The translations under genes were made by a program, and so were the position numbers. This document shows, piece after piece, positions 10,048 through 13,914 of a stretch of DNA of 64,000 nt. Each line of letters opens with the position of its first letter. Position 1 is the stretch's first letter. This DNA comes from Dyella lipolytica (lineage in GTDB: Bacteria; Pseudomonadota; Gammaproteobacteria; Xanthomonadales; Rhodanobacteraceae): positions 1,796,328-1,860,327 of the forward strand of contig NZ_BSNQ01000003.1 in NCBI RefSeq assembly GCF_030160075.1. Direction: 5' to 3'. The notes beneath the pieces are model-generated. The model worked only from the letters and a program-made list of their open reading frames with translations, made no database searches and was not told the DNA's origin.

Positions 10048-10698
10048 TCACGCTTTGGATAGCAGCCGTCCACCCATGATCATGTTGGCCACCACCACAA
10101 TCGCTACCGCTAGCGCGTGCATCAGCAGATCGGTCGCGGCGGCATCGAAGTTGTGGCAGATCTCCAGCAGACTCGCCGATGCAGACGCGCTGGCAAGGCC
10201 GACCATGACAGCCGTTAACACCGGCCGCAGTGGGCAGGCGCGACGCAACAACCAGATCATCAGGCCCGACAGCGGAATCGAGAAGCTGATGATGAAGATC
10301 AGGCAATCGTTGGCACCATGCAGATCCAGCACGGGCATGCCGGGTATGTGGGCGCGCAAACAGCCCAGGCCGCTGGCGCCGATCCACAGTAGCGCACTCG
10401 GCACGGGCAGCCATGCCCATGTGATAGGACGCCCGGGCACCGCGAGCACAAACGCCGCCAGCGCCCCGGTAATCGCGGTGATCGCCGCACCACAGGCAGC
10501 CCAGCCAAGGTCCGGTGCTGCGTCCCAACGACGTAGCATGGTGCCTGCGCCGTAATGCATGAACAGCACCACGGCAACGAGCGCCACCGCCAACAGCCAG
10601 CCGAGCGTGCGCCGCCACGGCGGCAGCAGACGCCGCACCGGCATCAGCTCGGCACCGAGCGTGTCGATCAGGGCTTCATGGCGCGATGTGTCGGACAT
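10048..10698 (-). CDS. NrsF-like membrane anti-sigma factor (DUF1109)
   Basis: 216 residues with six hydrophobic helices and a short cytoplasmic N-terminus (MSDTSRHEALIDTLGAELMPVRRL), the typical layout of NrsF, the negative regulator of sigma F first characterised in Caulobacter. Membrane-embedded cysteines are visible (WAACGA, GLGCL, NDCLIF, RRACPL, EICHNFD); paired cysteines in this family are implicated in signal sensing. It starts 5 bases after the sigma gene, so the pair forms one operon. The role as anti-sigma factor is inferred from family and position. Confidence 0.85.
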   Translation of the reverse strand: MSDTSRHEALIDTLGAELMPVRRLLPPWRRTLGWLLAVALVAVVLFMHYGAGTMLRRWDAAPDLGWAACGAAITAITGALAAFVLAVPGRPITWAWLPVPSALLWIGASGLGCLRAHIPGMPVLDLHGANDCLIFIISFSIPLSGLMIWLLRRACPLRPVLTAVMVGLASASASASLLEICHNFDAAATDLLMHALAVAIVVVANMIMGGRLLSKA

Positions 10699-10703
10699 CG
10701 GAA

Positions 10704-11381
10704 CTAGGATTCTCCGTGCAATCGATCGCGCAGCGTTTTGAGCGCGCGATGCAGGTTTACTTTCAAAGCACCGGTATTGCGACCGGTGCGTTCGGCCGCT
10801 TCGGCCAGCGATTGCTCCTTCAAACCGAGCTGTTCGACAGCTTCGCGCTGACCCGGCGGCAAGGTTTTGATCGCCTCGCGCAAACGTGTCGCTTCCTGCT
10901 CGCGCTCGGCTCCTGCGCTAGCGTCATCACGGTCCGCATGGTGGTCGAGAGCGAATTCGTCATGCACTTCGCGCCGATCGCGGCGACCGTGGCTGCGCAG
11001 CGTATCGATGGCACGCCGGCTGGCGATGGCCGACAACCAGGCGTCGTAGGAACGCGAGGGATCGAACGTATGTCGAACGCGATGCACCGTGAGCAGGGTC
11101 TCCTGCACGACATCATCCAGCGTATCCACCGGCACACCCTGCCGTCGCGCCACTGCGCGGATCAACGACACCGAATCGGTCAGCAAACGCGCATACGCGC
11201 GCTGATCGCCGGCCTGCGCAGCAGCCATCCACGCCGCCCGTTGCCGGTCAGCCTGATCGGTGGCGCTAGTGGACTCGGTTGGCACGGCCTTATCGATACC
11301 CGAAACCCTGGGTGGGAGTTCGCGTAGTAGTACCCACGTATCCCCAAAGGTCAAGGTGTTGAAGGTCAGGGTGTGGGACAT
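10704..11381 (-). CDS. ECF sigma factor, SigF-like
   Basis: About 225 residues from the ATG at 11381. Sigma region 2 (AYARLLTDSVSLIRAVARRQG, then LDDVVQETLLTVHRVRHTFDPSR) and region 4 (LPPGQREAVEQLGLKEQSLAEAAERTGRNTGALKVNLHRAL-type) are both clear, with no extra domains. A start at 11414 is excluded because it overlaps the -10 element; the ATG at 11381 leaves a leader of about 25 nt. The N-terminal 45 residues before region 2 are unusually long, so a later start is possible. The downstream NrsF-like gene and the mirrored GTAACC-N16-CGAA promoters indicate autoregulation plus control of dipZ-msrB. Confidence 0.9.
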   Translation of the reverse strand: MSHTLTFNTLTFGDTWVLLRELPPRVSGIDKAVPTESTSATDQADRQRAAWMAAAQAGDQRAYARLLTDSVSLIRAVARRQGVPVDTLDDVVQETLLTVHRVRHTFDPSRSYDAWLSAIASRRAIDTLRSHGRRDRREVHDEFALDHHADRDDASAGAEREQEATRLREAIKTLPPGQREAVEQLGLKEQSLAEAAERTGRNTGALKVNLHRALKTLRDRLHGES

Positions 11382-11413
11382 GGCTGATCCGTGCTTGGCG
11401 CTACAGATGTTCA

Positions 11414-11439
11414 TTCGTTGAAAGGTCGGATTCGGTTAC
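11414..11439 (-). promoter_or_regulatory. SigF-type promoter for sigF-nrsF
   Basis: On the minus strand GTAACC (11439-11434), 16 bases, CGAA (11417-11414). This matches the form I recall for Caulobacter sigma F promoters. The same element with the same spacing lies on the plus strand at 11468-11493. A second GGTAACC copy lies 10 bp further upstream (11444-11450). Confidence 0.75.
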
Positions 11440-11467
11440 TTCGGGTTACCGGTGCCGCACACTTGGC

Positions 11468-11493
11468 GTAACCGCGCCACCCTCCTGTACGAA
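11468..11493 (+). promoter_or_regulatory. SigF-type promoter for dipZ-msrB
   Basis: GTAACC (11468-11473), 16 bases, CGAA (11490-11493). Start of transcription would fall near 11500, which rules out the upstream in-frame codon at 11452 and supports the ATG at 11527 for the downstream gene. Confidence 0.75.
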
Positions 11494-11526
11494 TACTCAC
11501 CAGTAGCCGCATCAACGAGCCGACTC

Positions 11527-13251
11527 ATGATTCTGCTGATCCTTGCCTTTCTGGGTGGTGTGCTGACCATTCTCAGCCCATGCATCCTGCCTGTATTGCC
11601 GTTTGTGTTCGCGCGTGCCGATCGACCTTTCGCGCGCAATGGATTGCCGATGCTGATCGGCATGGCGCTGACTTTCGCGCTGGTGGCGACGCTGGCGGCG
11701 GTAGGCGGCGGCTGGGCGGTGCGTGCGAATCAATACGGGCGATACGCTGCGCTGCTGGTGCTGGCGATACTCGGCCTTACTCTGCTTTCATCGCACTTCG
11801 CCGAGTGGATCAGCCGTCCATTCGTGAACCTGGGCAACCGGCTTACCAAACATTCGGATACGCAAAGCGACTCGCCATGGTCGGCGGCGGGATTGGGTAT
11901 TGCTACCGGCTTGCTATGGGCGCCGTGCGCCGGACCGATTCTTGGCCTGCTGCTGACGGGTGCCGCACTGCAGGGAGCCAGCGTGCAGACCACCTTGTTG
12001 CTGCTTACTTATGCCGGCGGTGCTGCGGTTTCGCTGGCGCTTGCGCTGGTGGTGGGCGGCCGCGTGTTCGCTTTGATGAAACGCTCGCTTGGTGCCGGCG
12101 AATGGGTGCGGCGCGCGCTGGGTGTATTAGTGCTAGGCGGCGTGGCAGTCATCGCGCTGGGTGTCGATACGGGTTTGTTGACGCGTGTGTCGCTGGCGAG
12201 CACGAGCGGCATCGAGCAGAAACTTATCGACGCCGTGCGTCCCGCGACGGTTGCCGCGGCGCCTGTCCTCAAAGCAGGCGAAGCACTGCCGATGGAAGGG
12301 GAATTCCCCTCGCTGTCCGGCGCCACGCAATGGTTCAACAGTGCGCCGCTGTCGCCCGAATCGCTGCACGGCAAAGTAGTGCTGGTCGATTTCTGGACCT
12401 ACTCTTGCATCAATTGCATCCGTTCGCTGCCCTATGTCAACGCCTGGGCGCAGAAGTATCGTGATCACGGCCTGGTGGTGATCGGCGTCCATTCGCCGGA
12501 GTTCGCGTTCGAAAAGGACCCCGACAACGTAGCCAAGGCGATCAAGGATTTTGGCATCACCTATCCGGTGGCGATGGACGACAACTACGCCATCTGGCAA
12601 GCCTTCAACAACGAATACTGGCCGGCGCACTACTTCATCGACGCTCAAGGTCAGATTCGCTCTCACCACTTCGGCGAAGGCGACTATGCCGGCAGCGAAG
12701 ACATGATTCGCCGCTTGCTGACCGATGCCGGTTACAAGGATCTGCCAGGTGGTTACGTGCAACCTGGCGCATCCGGTGCGGAAGCCGCCGGCTCCAACGA
12801 TGCAAATCGCTCGCCCGAAACCTACGTAGGCTACGCACGCGGTGCGAATTTCGCAGGGGGCGAGATTGCGCATGACGACAGCTGGAACTATCGCGCGCCT
12901 GATGCGCTGCAGGCCAACCAATGGGCGTTCAACGGTCACTGGACCGTGCACGAACAGAGCGCATCCCTCGACAAGCCCGATGGCGGCATCGTCTACCGCT
13001 TCCGCGGTCGTGACCTGCACCTGGTGCTGGGACCCGGCATGGACGGCAAACCCGTGCGTTTCCGCATCACTCTCGATGGCAAGGCCCCCGGTGCCGACCA
13101 CGGCGCGGATACCGATCCCGACGGTAACGGCACCGTAACCGAACAACGGCTCTACCAACTGGTGCGCCAGGCGCATGGCACGGGTGAGCGCGTGTTCGAA
13201 ATCACTTTCCTCGATCCGAACGTACGCGCCTACGCCTTCACCTTCGGCTGA
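11527..13251 (+). CDS. dipZ: DipZ-like thiol-disulfide carrier: CcdA/DsbD membrane domain + thioredoxin-like domain + C-terminal beta domain
   Basis: A 574-residue fusion. Residues 1-225 form a CcdA/DsbD-type electron-carrying membrane domain with the paired cysteines expected in helices 1 and 4 (SPCILPVLPF, Cys18; WAPCAGP, near 134). A TlpA/thioredoxin-like domain follows (about 260-420) with the active site Cys294-I-N-Cys297 in FWTYSCINCIRSLPYVN. The last 140 residues (from ETYVGYARGANF) match the extra beta-sandwich, carbohydrate-binding-like domain of mycobacterial DipZ. Role: moving reducing power from the cytoplasm to the periplasm. It likely feeds the periplasmic MsrB encoded next. Expressed from the SigF-type promoter at 11468. 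Confidence 0.88.
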   Translation: MILLILAFLGGVLTILSPCILPVLPFVFARADRPFARNGLPMLIGMALTFALVATLAAVGGGWAVRANQYGRYAALLVLAILGLTLLSSHFAEWISRPFVNLGNRLTKHSDTQSDSPWSAAGLGIATGLLWAPCAGPILGLLLTGAALQGASVQTTLLLLTYAGGAAVSLALALVVGGRVFALMKRSLGAGEWVRRALGVLVLGGVAVIALGVDTGLLTRVSLASTSGIEQKLIDAVRPATVAAAPVLKAGEALPMEGEFPSLSGATQWFNSAPLSPESLHGKVVLVDFWTYSCINCIRSLPYVNAWAQKYRDHGLVVIGVHSPEFAFEKDPDNVAKAIKDFGITYPVAMDDNYAIWQAFNNEYWPAHYFIDAQGQIRSHHFGEGDYAGSEDMIRRLLTDAGYKDLPGGYVQPGASGAEAAGSNDANRSPETYVGYARGANFAGGEIAHDDSWNYRAPDALQANQWAFNGHWTVHEQSASLDKPDGGIVYRFRGRDLHLVLGPGMDGKPVRFRITLDGKAPGADHGADTDPDGNGTVTEQRLYQLVRQAHGTGERVFEITFLDPNVRAYAFTFG

Positions 13252-13287
13252 GCGCGCGAACGATCACAAAGCAAACAGGAGATTCAT

Positions 13288-13914
13288 ATGACATCCACGT
13301 TCGATCACAAAGCCATGGATCGCCGTCGCTTTCTGTTTGCGGCGCTTGGCGGTGGCGGCTTGCTGGCGCTAGGCGGCTTATCGGCCGAGCGCTTGTTCGG
13401 CAACAAAGGAAATGGCGTCATGGCAGCGGCAACTGGCACAGCAGCGCCTGCGCAGGATCTGCTGCTGGAATGTTTCGCCGATGATGATGGCCATCATCTT
13501 GGCACCTGTCAGGTCCGCAAACTGGTGTTGAGCGATGCGCAGTGGCATCAACGTCTTTCGGATGAGGCTTTTAATGTCATGCGCCGCGCGGGTACCGAGA
13601 TGGCCTTTAGCGGTCCGCATGAGAAGCCGAACAGCAAAGGTCTCTATCGTTGTGTCGGTTGCGATACGGCGCTGTTCAATGGAGCGACACAATTCGACTC
13701 CGGTACGGGTTGGCCTAGTTTCTGGCAGCCGATTGCAAAGAAAAATGTGATCGAAACCAGCGATACCAGTTTCGGCATGGTTCGTACCGCCGTCAGCTGT
13801 GCGGGATGCGACAGCCATTTGGGACACGTATTCGACGACGGCCCGGCGCCGACCGGGCTGCGTTATTGCATGAATTCGGTGGCGTTGCGGTTTGTGGCCT
13901 TTCGCGTGAGCTAA
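13288..13914 (+). CDS. msrB: Tat-exported peptide-methionine (R)-S-oxide reductase MsrB
   Basis: 208 residues. A Tat signal (DRRRFLFAALGGGGLLALGG) precedes a complete MsrB domain. It carries two zinc-binding CxxC pairs (CVGC about 122-125 and CAGC about 171-174), the substrate loop FDSGTGWPSFW, HLGHVFDDG, and the catalytic Cys in RYCMNS (about 194; usually RYCINS). It reduces methionine-R-sulfoxide in exported proteins. A strong Shine-Dalgarno (AGGAG) 7 bases upstream fixes the start at 13288. It follows dipZ by 36 bases, and dipZ could supply its electrons. Export of MsrB alone by Tat is less common than the MsrAB fusions or MsrPQ. Confidence 0.93.
   Translation: MTSTFDHKAMDRRRFLFAALGGGGLLALGGLSAERLFGNKGNGVMAAATGTAAPAQDLLLECFADDDGHHLGTCQVRKLVLSDAQWHQRLSDEAFNVMRRAGTEMAFSGPHEKPNSKGLYRCVGCDTALFNGATQFDSGTGWPSFWQPIAKKNVIETSDTSFGMVRTAVSCAGCDSHLGHVFDDGPAPTGLRYCMNSVALRFVAFRVS

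Follow-up and report, generated by a model that had tools for sequence, protein, structure and literature searches.

A putative sigma-F/NrsF envelope-stress regulon with mirrored promoters for sigF-nrsF and dipZ-msrB in Dyella lipolytica

Introduction

In Bradyrhizobium japonicum, the extracytoplasmic function (ECF) sigma factor EcfF, of type ECF16, and its partner OsrA, a member of the DUF1109 or NrsF family, are reported to control three methionine sulfoxide reductase (Msr) genes, as well as bll1027, encoding a DsbD-like membrane protein, and bll1026, encoding a periplasmic thioredoxin; the authors speculate that the latter two products feed periplasmic Msr (PMC3420878). The response is to peroxide, and the second conserved cysteine of OsrA is required (PMC3420878). 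The present report concerns a locus of Dyella lipolytica in which genes for a comparable pair, sigF and nrsF, lie back to back with dipZ and msrB across two opposed sites of the form GTAACC-N16-CGAA. The locus was analyzed within a 64,000-nt stretch of the genome (the window), and coordinates given without a contig or locus label are positions in the window.

Sigma F of Caulobacter crescentus is described as responding to chromium and cadmium, not to reactive oxygen species (ROS), and the msrA homologues were unchanged in that work (PMC3511200). The ECF16 pair of Brucella melitensis responds to hypochlorous acid, and the consensus printed for ECF16 promoters is (T/C)GTAAC-N17-CGAA (PMC8315932). 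Sigma factor and NrsF genes also occur in Buf1 bufferin clusters (PMC12452194). Among the matches listed in literature searches on DipZ or MsrB, on NrsF or ECF16 with Msr, and on sigma factors of Dyella or Rhodanobacter, no account of this locus was recognized by title or start of abstract.

Results

The gap between sigF and dipZ contains two exact GTAACC-N16-CGAA copies, on opposite strands and 28 bp apart, at 11414-11439 (minus strand) and 11468-11493 (plus strand), as the original prediction had stated. The first is the predicted promoter of a unit formed by sigF (10704-11381, minus strand) and nrsF (10048-10698, minus strand), and the second that of a unit formed by dipZ (11527-13251, plus strand) and, 36 nt further on, msrB (13288-13914, plus strand). 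The gene identities proposed earlier were upheld by family models. The 216-residue NrsF matched PF06532 (E 3e-20; 73.3 bits against a cut-off of 26.8), consistent with a membrane anti-sigma factor, and the 225-residue SigF, an ECF sigma factor, matched Sigma70_r2 and Sigma70_r4_2 above cut-off. Pfam divided DipZ into a CcdA/DsbD-like membrane part (DsbD_TM), a TlpA-like thioredoxin domain (Redoxin) and a C-terminal Thioredoxin_10 domain, while MsrB matched SelR (E 3e-46) and, above cut-off, TIGR00357, and carries a twin-arginine-like signal by sequence. The open reading frame list has sigF begin at ATG 11414, which overlaps the −10 element, and dipZ at GTG 11452; as both codons fall within or before the promoter elements, ATG 11381 and ATG 11527 are preferred, which places the −10 elements 32 and 33 nt from sigF and dipZ, respectively. 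No sigma-70-like site was found in the gap, where merely 0.1 would be expected by chance. An extra GTAACC at 11446-11451 (minus strand), just upstream of the sigF-side site, creates a GTAACC-CGAA-GTAACC row and has no CGAA of its own at spacing 16.

Conservation of this arrangement was assessed with an NrsF alignment in a scan of named genomes, where the best 80 of 97 relatives constitute the 80 named loci from Dyella, Rhodanobacter, Frateuria, Fulvimonas and unassigned bins. A sigF gene was present in 79 of these, preceding nrsF in each, the remaining locus (L197) being cut by a contig end; dipZ was present in 69. Sites with no more than one mismatch were found before sigF in 79/79 loci with that gene and before dipZ in 69/69, which supports autoregulation of sigF and the proposed sigma-F control of dipZ-msrB. 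Of the dipZ sites, 62 lie in the common gap and have spacer 16, and three are exact with spacer 15 (L136, L137 and L140). Three more are kept at dipZ even though another gene separates it from sigF (L169, L176 and L194), and L204, where dipZ lies ~4.5 kb off, has a GTAACT site. Both sites were recorded in 72 loci and both were exact in 35, a count in which the L136 site is wrong. The distance from −10 to the dipZ start was 30-36 nt in 57 of the 60 parsed cases (the others being 45, 46 and 195 nt; nine of the 69 were unparsed). The spacers between the motif halves have diverged across loci, and deviations in the chosen sites fall at the sixth base of GTAACC (the wrong L136 site excepted); motif column scores of 2.0 hold by construction of the site filter and are not separate evidence.

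The loci without dipZ include L156, L188, L189 and L197 (cut short) and L192, which has neither dipZ nor msrB in reach. In six others (L160, L171, L177, L179 on a short contig, L196 and L198), msrB stands beside sigF with no dipZ in reach, and the site precedes msrB in 6/6. An obligatory neighborhood of dipZ and msrB was therefore rejected. A fixed palindromic operator was likewise rejected: the distance separating the −35 boxes is variable (−16 to 294 bp; median 22.5, n = 74), which argues for two independent promoters.

The closest solved structures to DipZ are PDB entries 5cyy and 2hyx, titled 'Protein DipZ' (E about 1e-66), a mycobacterial protein. Residues Cys19, Cys134, Cys294 and Cys297, corresponding to a CcdA-type pair and a CxxC motif, are kept in 70/70 DipZ sequences. 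The thioredoxin domain scores better against ResA (E 1e-16) than against the thioredoxin domain of MsrAB (E 3e-7). The msrB gene accompanies dipZ in 68 of the 69 loci with dipZ, L204 being the exception. Catalytic Cys194 and four zinc-type cysteines in two CxxC motifs are present in 75/75 MsrB sequences; Thr occupies the usual position of the recycling cysteine in all 75, a position that presumably lies in the SGxGWPSF motif of the 2-Cys class, and the protein falls in a 1-Cys-like class. In its N-terminal part, Cys62 and Cys74 are both present in 42 sequences and both absent in 32, with a single cysteine in one. Their joint presence or absence suggests that the two form a disulfide or a relay, dispensable in some lineages, although it could also arise from shared descent alone. 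Electron transfer from DipZ to MsrB is plausible.

In NrsF, Cys113 and Cys132 occur in 81/81 sequences and Cys181 in 78/81, the window included. By position number rather than alignment, Cys132 and Cys181 lie near residues 131 and 181 of Caulobacter NrsF and 129 and 179 of Bradyrhizobium OsrA. Cys181 is absent from L132, L140 and L183, and from L034 and L036 of the same genus, all with sigma-F-type sites kept; in L034, a cysteine stands five residues before position 181. Given that Bradyrhizobium OsrA needs its second cysteine for the peroxide response, such species must sense otherwise or be impaired. A simple hydropathy scan indicated five hydrophobic segments in NrsF, six transmembrane segments being the feature of family membership, and no relative of known structure was found by sequence at E up to 0.1. 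Among the 25 NCBIfam models listed for SigF, the general sigma70-ECF model alone passed its cut-off; an ECF sigma factor with Sigma70 regions 2 and 4 adjoins a DUF1109/NrsF gene, and the assignment to ECF16 is made by promoter and NrsF neighbor.

Across the genome of D. lipolytica, GTAAC-N17-CGAA lay outside called genes in 16/29 matches, as against 4/30 for a control with spacing three bases longer (Fisher p 0.0009); the dipZ site is among the 16 because the gene caller over-extends dipZ. Promoter-positioned matches numbered 10/29, as against 3/30 for the same control (p 0.03). Candidate targets in this genome include msrA, with a lipobox recognized by eye (site 35 nt upstream), a catalase-like gene (37 nt), a DUF1223 gene (72 nt), a secreted thioredoxin (32 nt) and, opposite it, a CcdA-like gene (GTAACT site, 122 nt). 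A second, signal-less msrB has a site 31 nt upstream, a CxxCxxCC protein a GTAACT site at 28 nt, and a Cys-rich exported precursor a GTAACT site at 50 nt; genes for MNIO and DUF2063 proteins follow the precursor, consistent with a bufferin-type operon. The original prediction had taken the locus for a complete periplasmic repair path. This does not hold, as MsrB acts on methionine R-sulfoxide only, and msrA, ccdA and the secreted thioredoxin are encoded elsewhere under the same promoter type.

The same targets were sought in three further genomes of the genus (7, 11 and 13 exact sites) and three labeled as other genera (3, 6 and 5), giving seven with that of D. lipolytica. An exact site precedes lipoprotein msrA in 7/7, all seven proteins being PMSR by Pfam, at 29-44 nt in five genomes and at 74 and 126 nt in L219 and L220; the L219 site overlaps an opposite open reading frame called by the script. 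The catalase-like gene, Catalase by Pfam in every case, has an exact site in 4/7. Within the genus, D. lipolytica included, exact sites precede the secreted thioredoxin in 3/4 genomes and the CcdA-like gene in 3/4, the D. lipolytica copy of the latter having GTAACT. An AraC-type regulator has an exact site in two genomes and, in that of D. lipolytica, one with spacer 15, there behind another bufferin-type operon; a DoxX gene has an exact site in genome G188. The remaining exact sites fall for the most part within called genes, probably by chance. Taken together, the regulon is wider than the locus and appears to be a set of genes under sigma F and NrsF for thiol-driven repair of methionine sulfoxide in the periplasm.

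Another mirrored pair, at L047:2745-2902 in the D. lipolytica genome, lies between the CxxCxxCC protein and the second msrB, genes that may be acquired, since the codon-based caller missed both. A third pair, at L049:8921-9094 (GTAACG and GTAACT), separates a Tat-like exported protein, with an HExxH-like stretch and no Pfam match, from a bufferin-type operon. A second DipZ paralogue (L049:2574-4448, minus strand; contig C3, ~950.6-952.4 kb) lies ~5 kb from a bufferin-type operon and ~8 kb from the second msrB; it was not counted in the regulon, the best match at a suitable position having three mismatches and spacer 15, ~21 nt before a likely start. In two genomes of the genus (L107 and L111), an exact site occurs 92 nt upstream of a secreted protein gene.

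In other genera, a short exported peptide of the MXKDX type is encoded behind nrsF or elsewhere with its own site. Met-rich open reading frames in the 80 loci passed the site-distance rule of the script in 12/14 cases. TIGR02953 gave 21 matches in 200 Xanthomonadales genomes, 13 over cut-off; a site accompanies 14 of the 21, none was found for the D. lipolytica copy and four others, and two matches look spurious. The Met-rich peptide genes tie the system to BcrX of Brucella and to MrpX of Azospira suillum, a Met-rich peptide reportedly belonging to a SigF/NrsF/MrpX/YedYZ system whose ECF16 pair is said to drive the adjacent methionine sulfoxide repair operon.

MsrPQ, the alternative periplasmic enzyme system, is a molybdoenzyme fed by the respiratory chain. 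In the D. lipolytica genome, the best match to the MsrP model NF003767 scored 35.8 bits against a cut-off of 207 and fell on a SorA-like protein (594.4 bits against a SorA cut-off of 600), which is the sole Oxidored_molyb (PF00174) protein of this genome; MsrP was thus rejected as the enzyme serving it. The 200-genome sample includes 52 Rhodanobacteraceae, counted from listings. MsrP was above cut-off in 0/39 NrsF-positive Rhodanobacteraceae genomes as against 8/13 others (Fisher p 1.7e-6, a test that ignores shared descent), and outside the family in 10/11 NrsF-positive genomes. Since the 39 are not uniformly of the dipZ type, MsrP absence follows the NrsF lineages of the family, not strictly dipZ-msrB. 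Loci L014-L024 represent the other NrsF subtype: here, the gene opposite sigF encodes a DUF2282-like bufferin precursor in 11/11 by sequence signature (two Pfam-confirmed), and mirrored sites are present in 11/11. Genomes G180 and G198 (L018 and L021) have two nrsF genes within ~1.9 kb, and the mirrored sites face the DUF2282-like gene.

Discussion

The observations are best accommodated by a model that places the locus at the center of a sigma-F/NrsF envelope-stress regulon of the ECF16 type, and we put the probability of this reading at roughly 80%. Under this model, NrsF would hold sigma F at the membrane until oxidants or thiol-reactive metals act on NrsF, probably via its conserved cysteines, and release the sigma factor. 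Sigma F would then fire the mirrored promoters, leftward into sigF-nrsF, so that autoregulation comes with its own brake, and rightward into dipZ-msrB. DipZ would accept electrons from thioredoxin in the cytoplasm and pass them through the membrane; the thioredoxin domain of DipZ would then reduce exported MsrB, which in turn would repair methionine R-sulfoxide in periplasmic proteins. Sigma F may also act at other loci, where it would switch on a bufferin-type operon, a catalase-like protein, the lipoprotein MsrA that handles the S form, and a second electron line made up of a CcdA-like protein and the secreted thioredoxin.

A number of points weigh against this model. A genome-wide search for GTAACC-N16-CGAA, as envisaged in the original prediction, did yield further sites before msrA, thioredoxin and catalase-like genes, but with no excess of the exact motif (13 matches versus 15 for the reversed pattern); nor was the ECF16 form GTAAC-N17-CGAA in excess (29 versus 40 for the control). 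Three of the ten promoter-positioned matches (L066, L068 and L069) are likely chance, and the sites of several proposed members read GTAACT or GTAACG. Distances beyond 28-37 nt apply to the bufferin precursor (50 nt), DUF1223 (72 nt), ccdA of D. lipolytica (122 nt) and the Rhodanobacter-type msrA (126 nt). The gene caller missed three proposed targets (the second msrB, the CxxCxxCC protein and the bufferin precursor), and the precursor had no Pfam match. No site at a fitting place was found for two of the three bufferin-type operons of D. lipolytica, nor for its Met-rich MXKDX gene (L243; C3, ~913.2 kb), which was accordingly rejected as a regulon member, unlike most of those checked in other genera. 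Both sites at the locus contain the GTAAC-N17-CGAA part of the printed consensus; the preceding T/C is found on the dipZ side only, the sigF-side GTAACC being preceded by A. The six loci with msrB and no adjacent dipZ belong here too. Finally, what was observed are the sites, their conservation, the gene identities and the cysteines, from which control by sigma F, the signal that induces the system and each step of electron transfer are inferred.

Since the genome shows no excess, the motif is weak by number alone, and position and conservation carry the case. Both sites could in principle be chance matches, with dipZ-msrB transcribed from an ordinary promoter: besides the missing excess, 3/100 shuffles of the window (spacers 15-17; mean 0.28 matches) gave at least two matches. 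The recurrence of the site in 69/69 and 79/79 loci, with diverged spacers and a near-fixed distance to dipZ, makes this explanation very unlikely. Sigma F might instead drive dipZ-msrB with DipZ serving as a general periplasmic thiol reductant, whether for disulfides in proteins, for the maturation of cytochrome c or for sulfenic acids, and with MsrB reduced mainly by the CcdA-like protein and the secreted thioredoxin. In the same genomes, the genes for the latter two have sites of the sigma-F type; in addition, msrB lacks an adjacent dipZ in six loci, and the thioredoxin domain of DipZ is nearer to ResA than to that of MsrAB. Against this, msrB occurs with dipZ in 68 of 69 dipZ loci, which favors direct partnership, and this alternative as a whole is judged improbable.

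It is also conceivable, if doubtful, that the regulon is chiefly a response to metals such as copper, chromate or cadmium, with methionine repair as one arm and with neither hypochlorite nor peroxide as the natural signal. One of the three bufferin-type operons of D. lipolytica carries a site, and in the L014-L024 subtype the bufferin precursor takes the place opposite sigF in all 11 loci. The sigma and NrsF genes in Buf1 clusters (PMC12452194) and the chromium and cadmium response of Caulobacter sigma F (PMC3511200) point the same way. However, ECF16 relatives answer peroxide in Bradyrhizobium (PMC3420878) and hypochlorous acid in Brucella (PMC8315932), and most of the predicted targets are redox-repair genes.

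On the scale of the family, the sigma-F/NrsF switch of Rhodanobacteraceae may have replaced MsrPQ by a full thiol-driven periplasmic network of DipZ-MsrB, lipoprotein MsrA and CcdA with secreted thioredoxin. This network would be linked to catalase, to bufferins that bind copper and, in some members of the family, to Met-rich peptides of a sacrificial kind; a single promoter class, often arranged in mirrored pairs, would serve them all. We consider this broader proposal evenly poised. The comparative support is strong and names probable targets, across a large family of soil bacteria, for membrane anti-sigma switches of a class that has received little study. A natural contrast is also provided, in that NrsF-positive genomes mostly keep MsrP outside the family and lack it inside, so that the replacement of one enzyme chemistry by another under one switch becomes a directly testable question.

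Comparison with described systems delimits what is new. The Bradyrhizobium EcfF/OsrA system shares the sigma/anti-sigma type and promoter class of the Dyella locus, and the ecfF start codon, like that of sigF here, was moved downstream; its target promoter is GTAAC(g,a)-N14-15-(c,t)CG(t,a), unlike GTAACC-N16-CGAA, and in the accessible part of the report neither DipZ nor a mirrored dipZ-msrB output appears in the regulon (PMC3420878). Caulobacter SigF/NrsF has the same GTAACC-N16-CGAA promoter, a sigF self-promoter and two conserved NrsF cysteines, and its regulon likewise holds DUF2282/DUF692/DUF2063 operons and DoxX; unlike in Dyella, the target related to methionine sulfoxide is YedY, of the MsrP type, and the regulon table contains no DipZ or MsrB (PMC3511200). 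In Brucella BcrS/AbcS-BcrXQP, an ECF16 pair likewise drives an adjacent operon for periplasmic methionine sulfoxide repair, and the Met-rich MXKDX peptide BcrX has its counterpart behind nrsF in other Rhodanobacteraceae; the repair enzyme is MsrPQ, whereas Dyella has a thiol-based MsrB, probably fed by DipZ (PMC8315932). Haemophilus influenzae RpoE2/HrsE similarly places a periplasmic thiol-type Msr under an ECF sigma factor, with DoxX-type genes in the regulon, but the sigma factor is of type ECF13, the anti-sigma factor is a small cytoplasmic ZAS protein, and MsrA and MsrB are joined in one protein (PMC7907618). In Gram-positive Streptococcus pneumoniae, membrane CcdA and surface thioredoxins (Etrx) reduce exported SpMsrAB2 by two parallel lines, a likeness qualified by lipoprotein thioredoxins separate from CcdA and by the lack, in the available text, of any sigma-F control (PMC3914529). 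In summary, the general wiring is already known from the Bradyrhizobium ECF16/NrsF pair with its Msr, CcdA-like protein and thioredoxin (PMC3420878), and what is new is the DipZ-MsrB output, the depth of its conservation and the absence of MsrP from all 39 NrsF-positive Rhodanobacteraceae genomes sampled.

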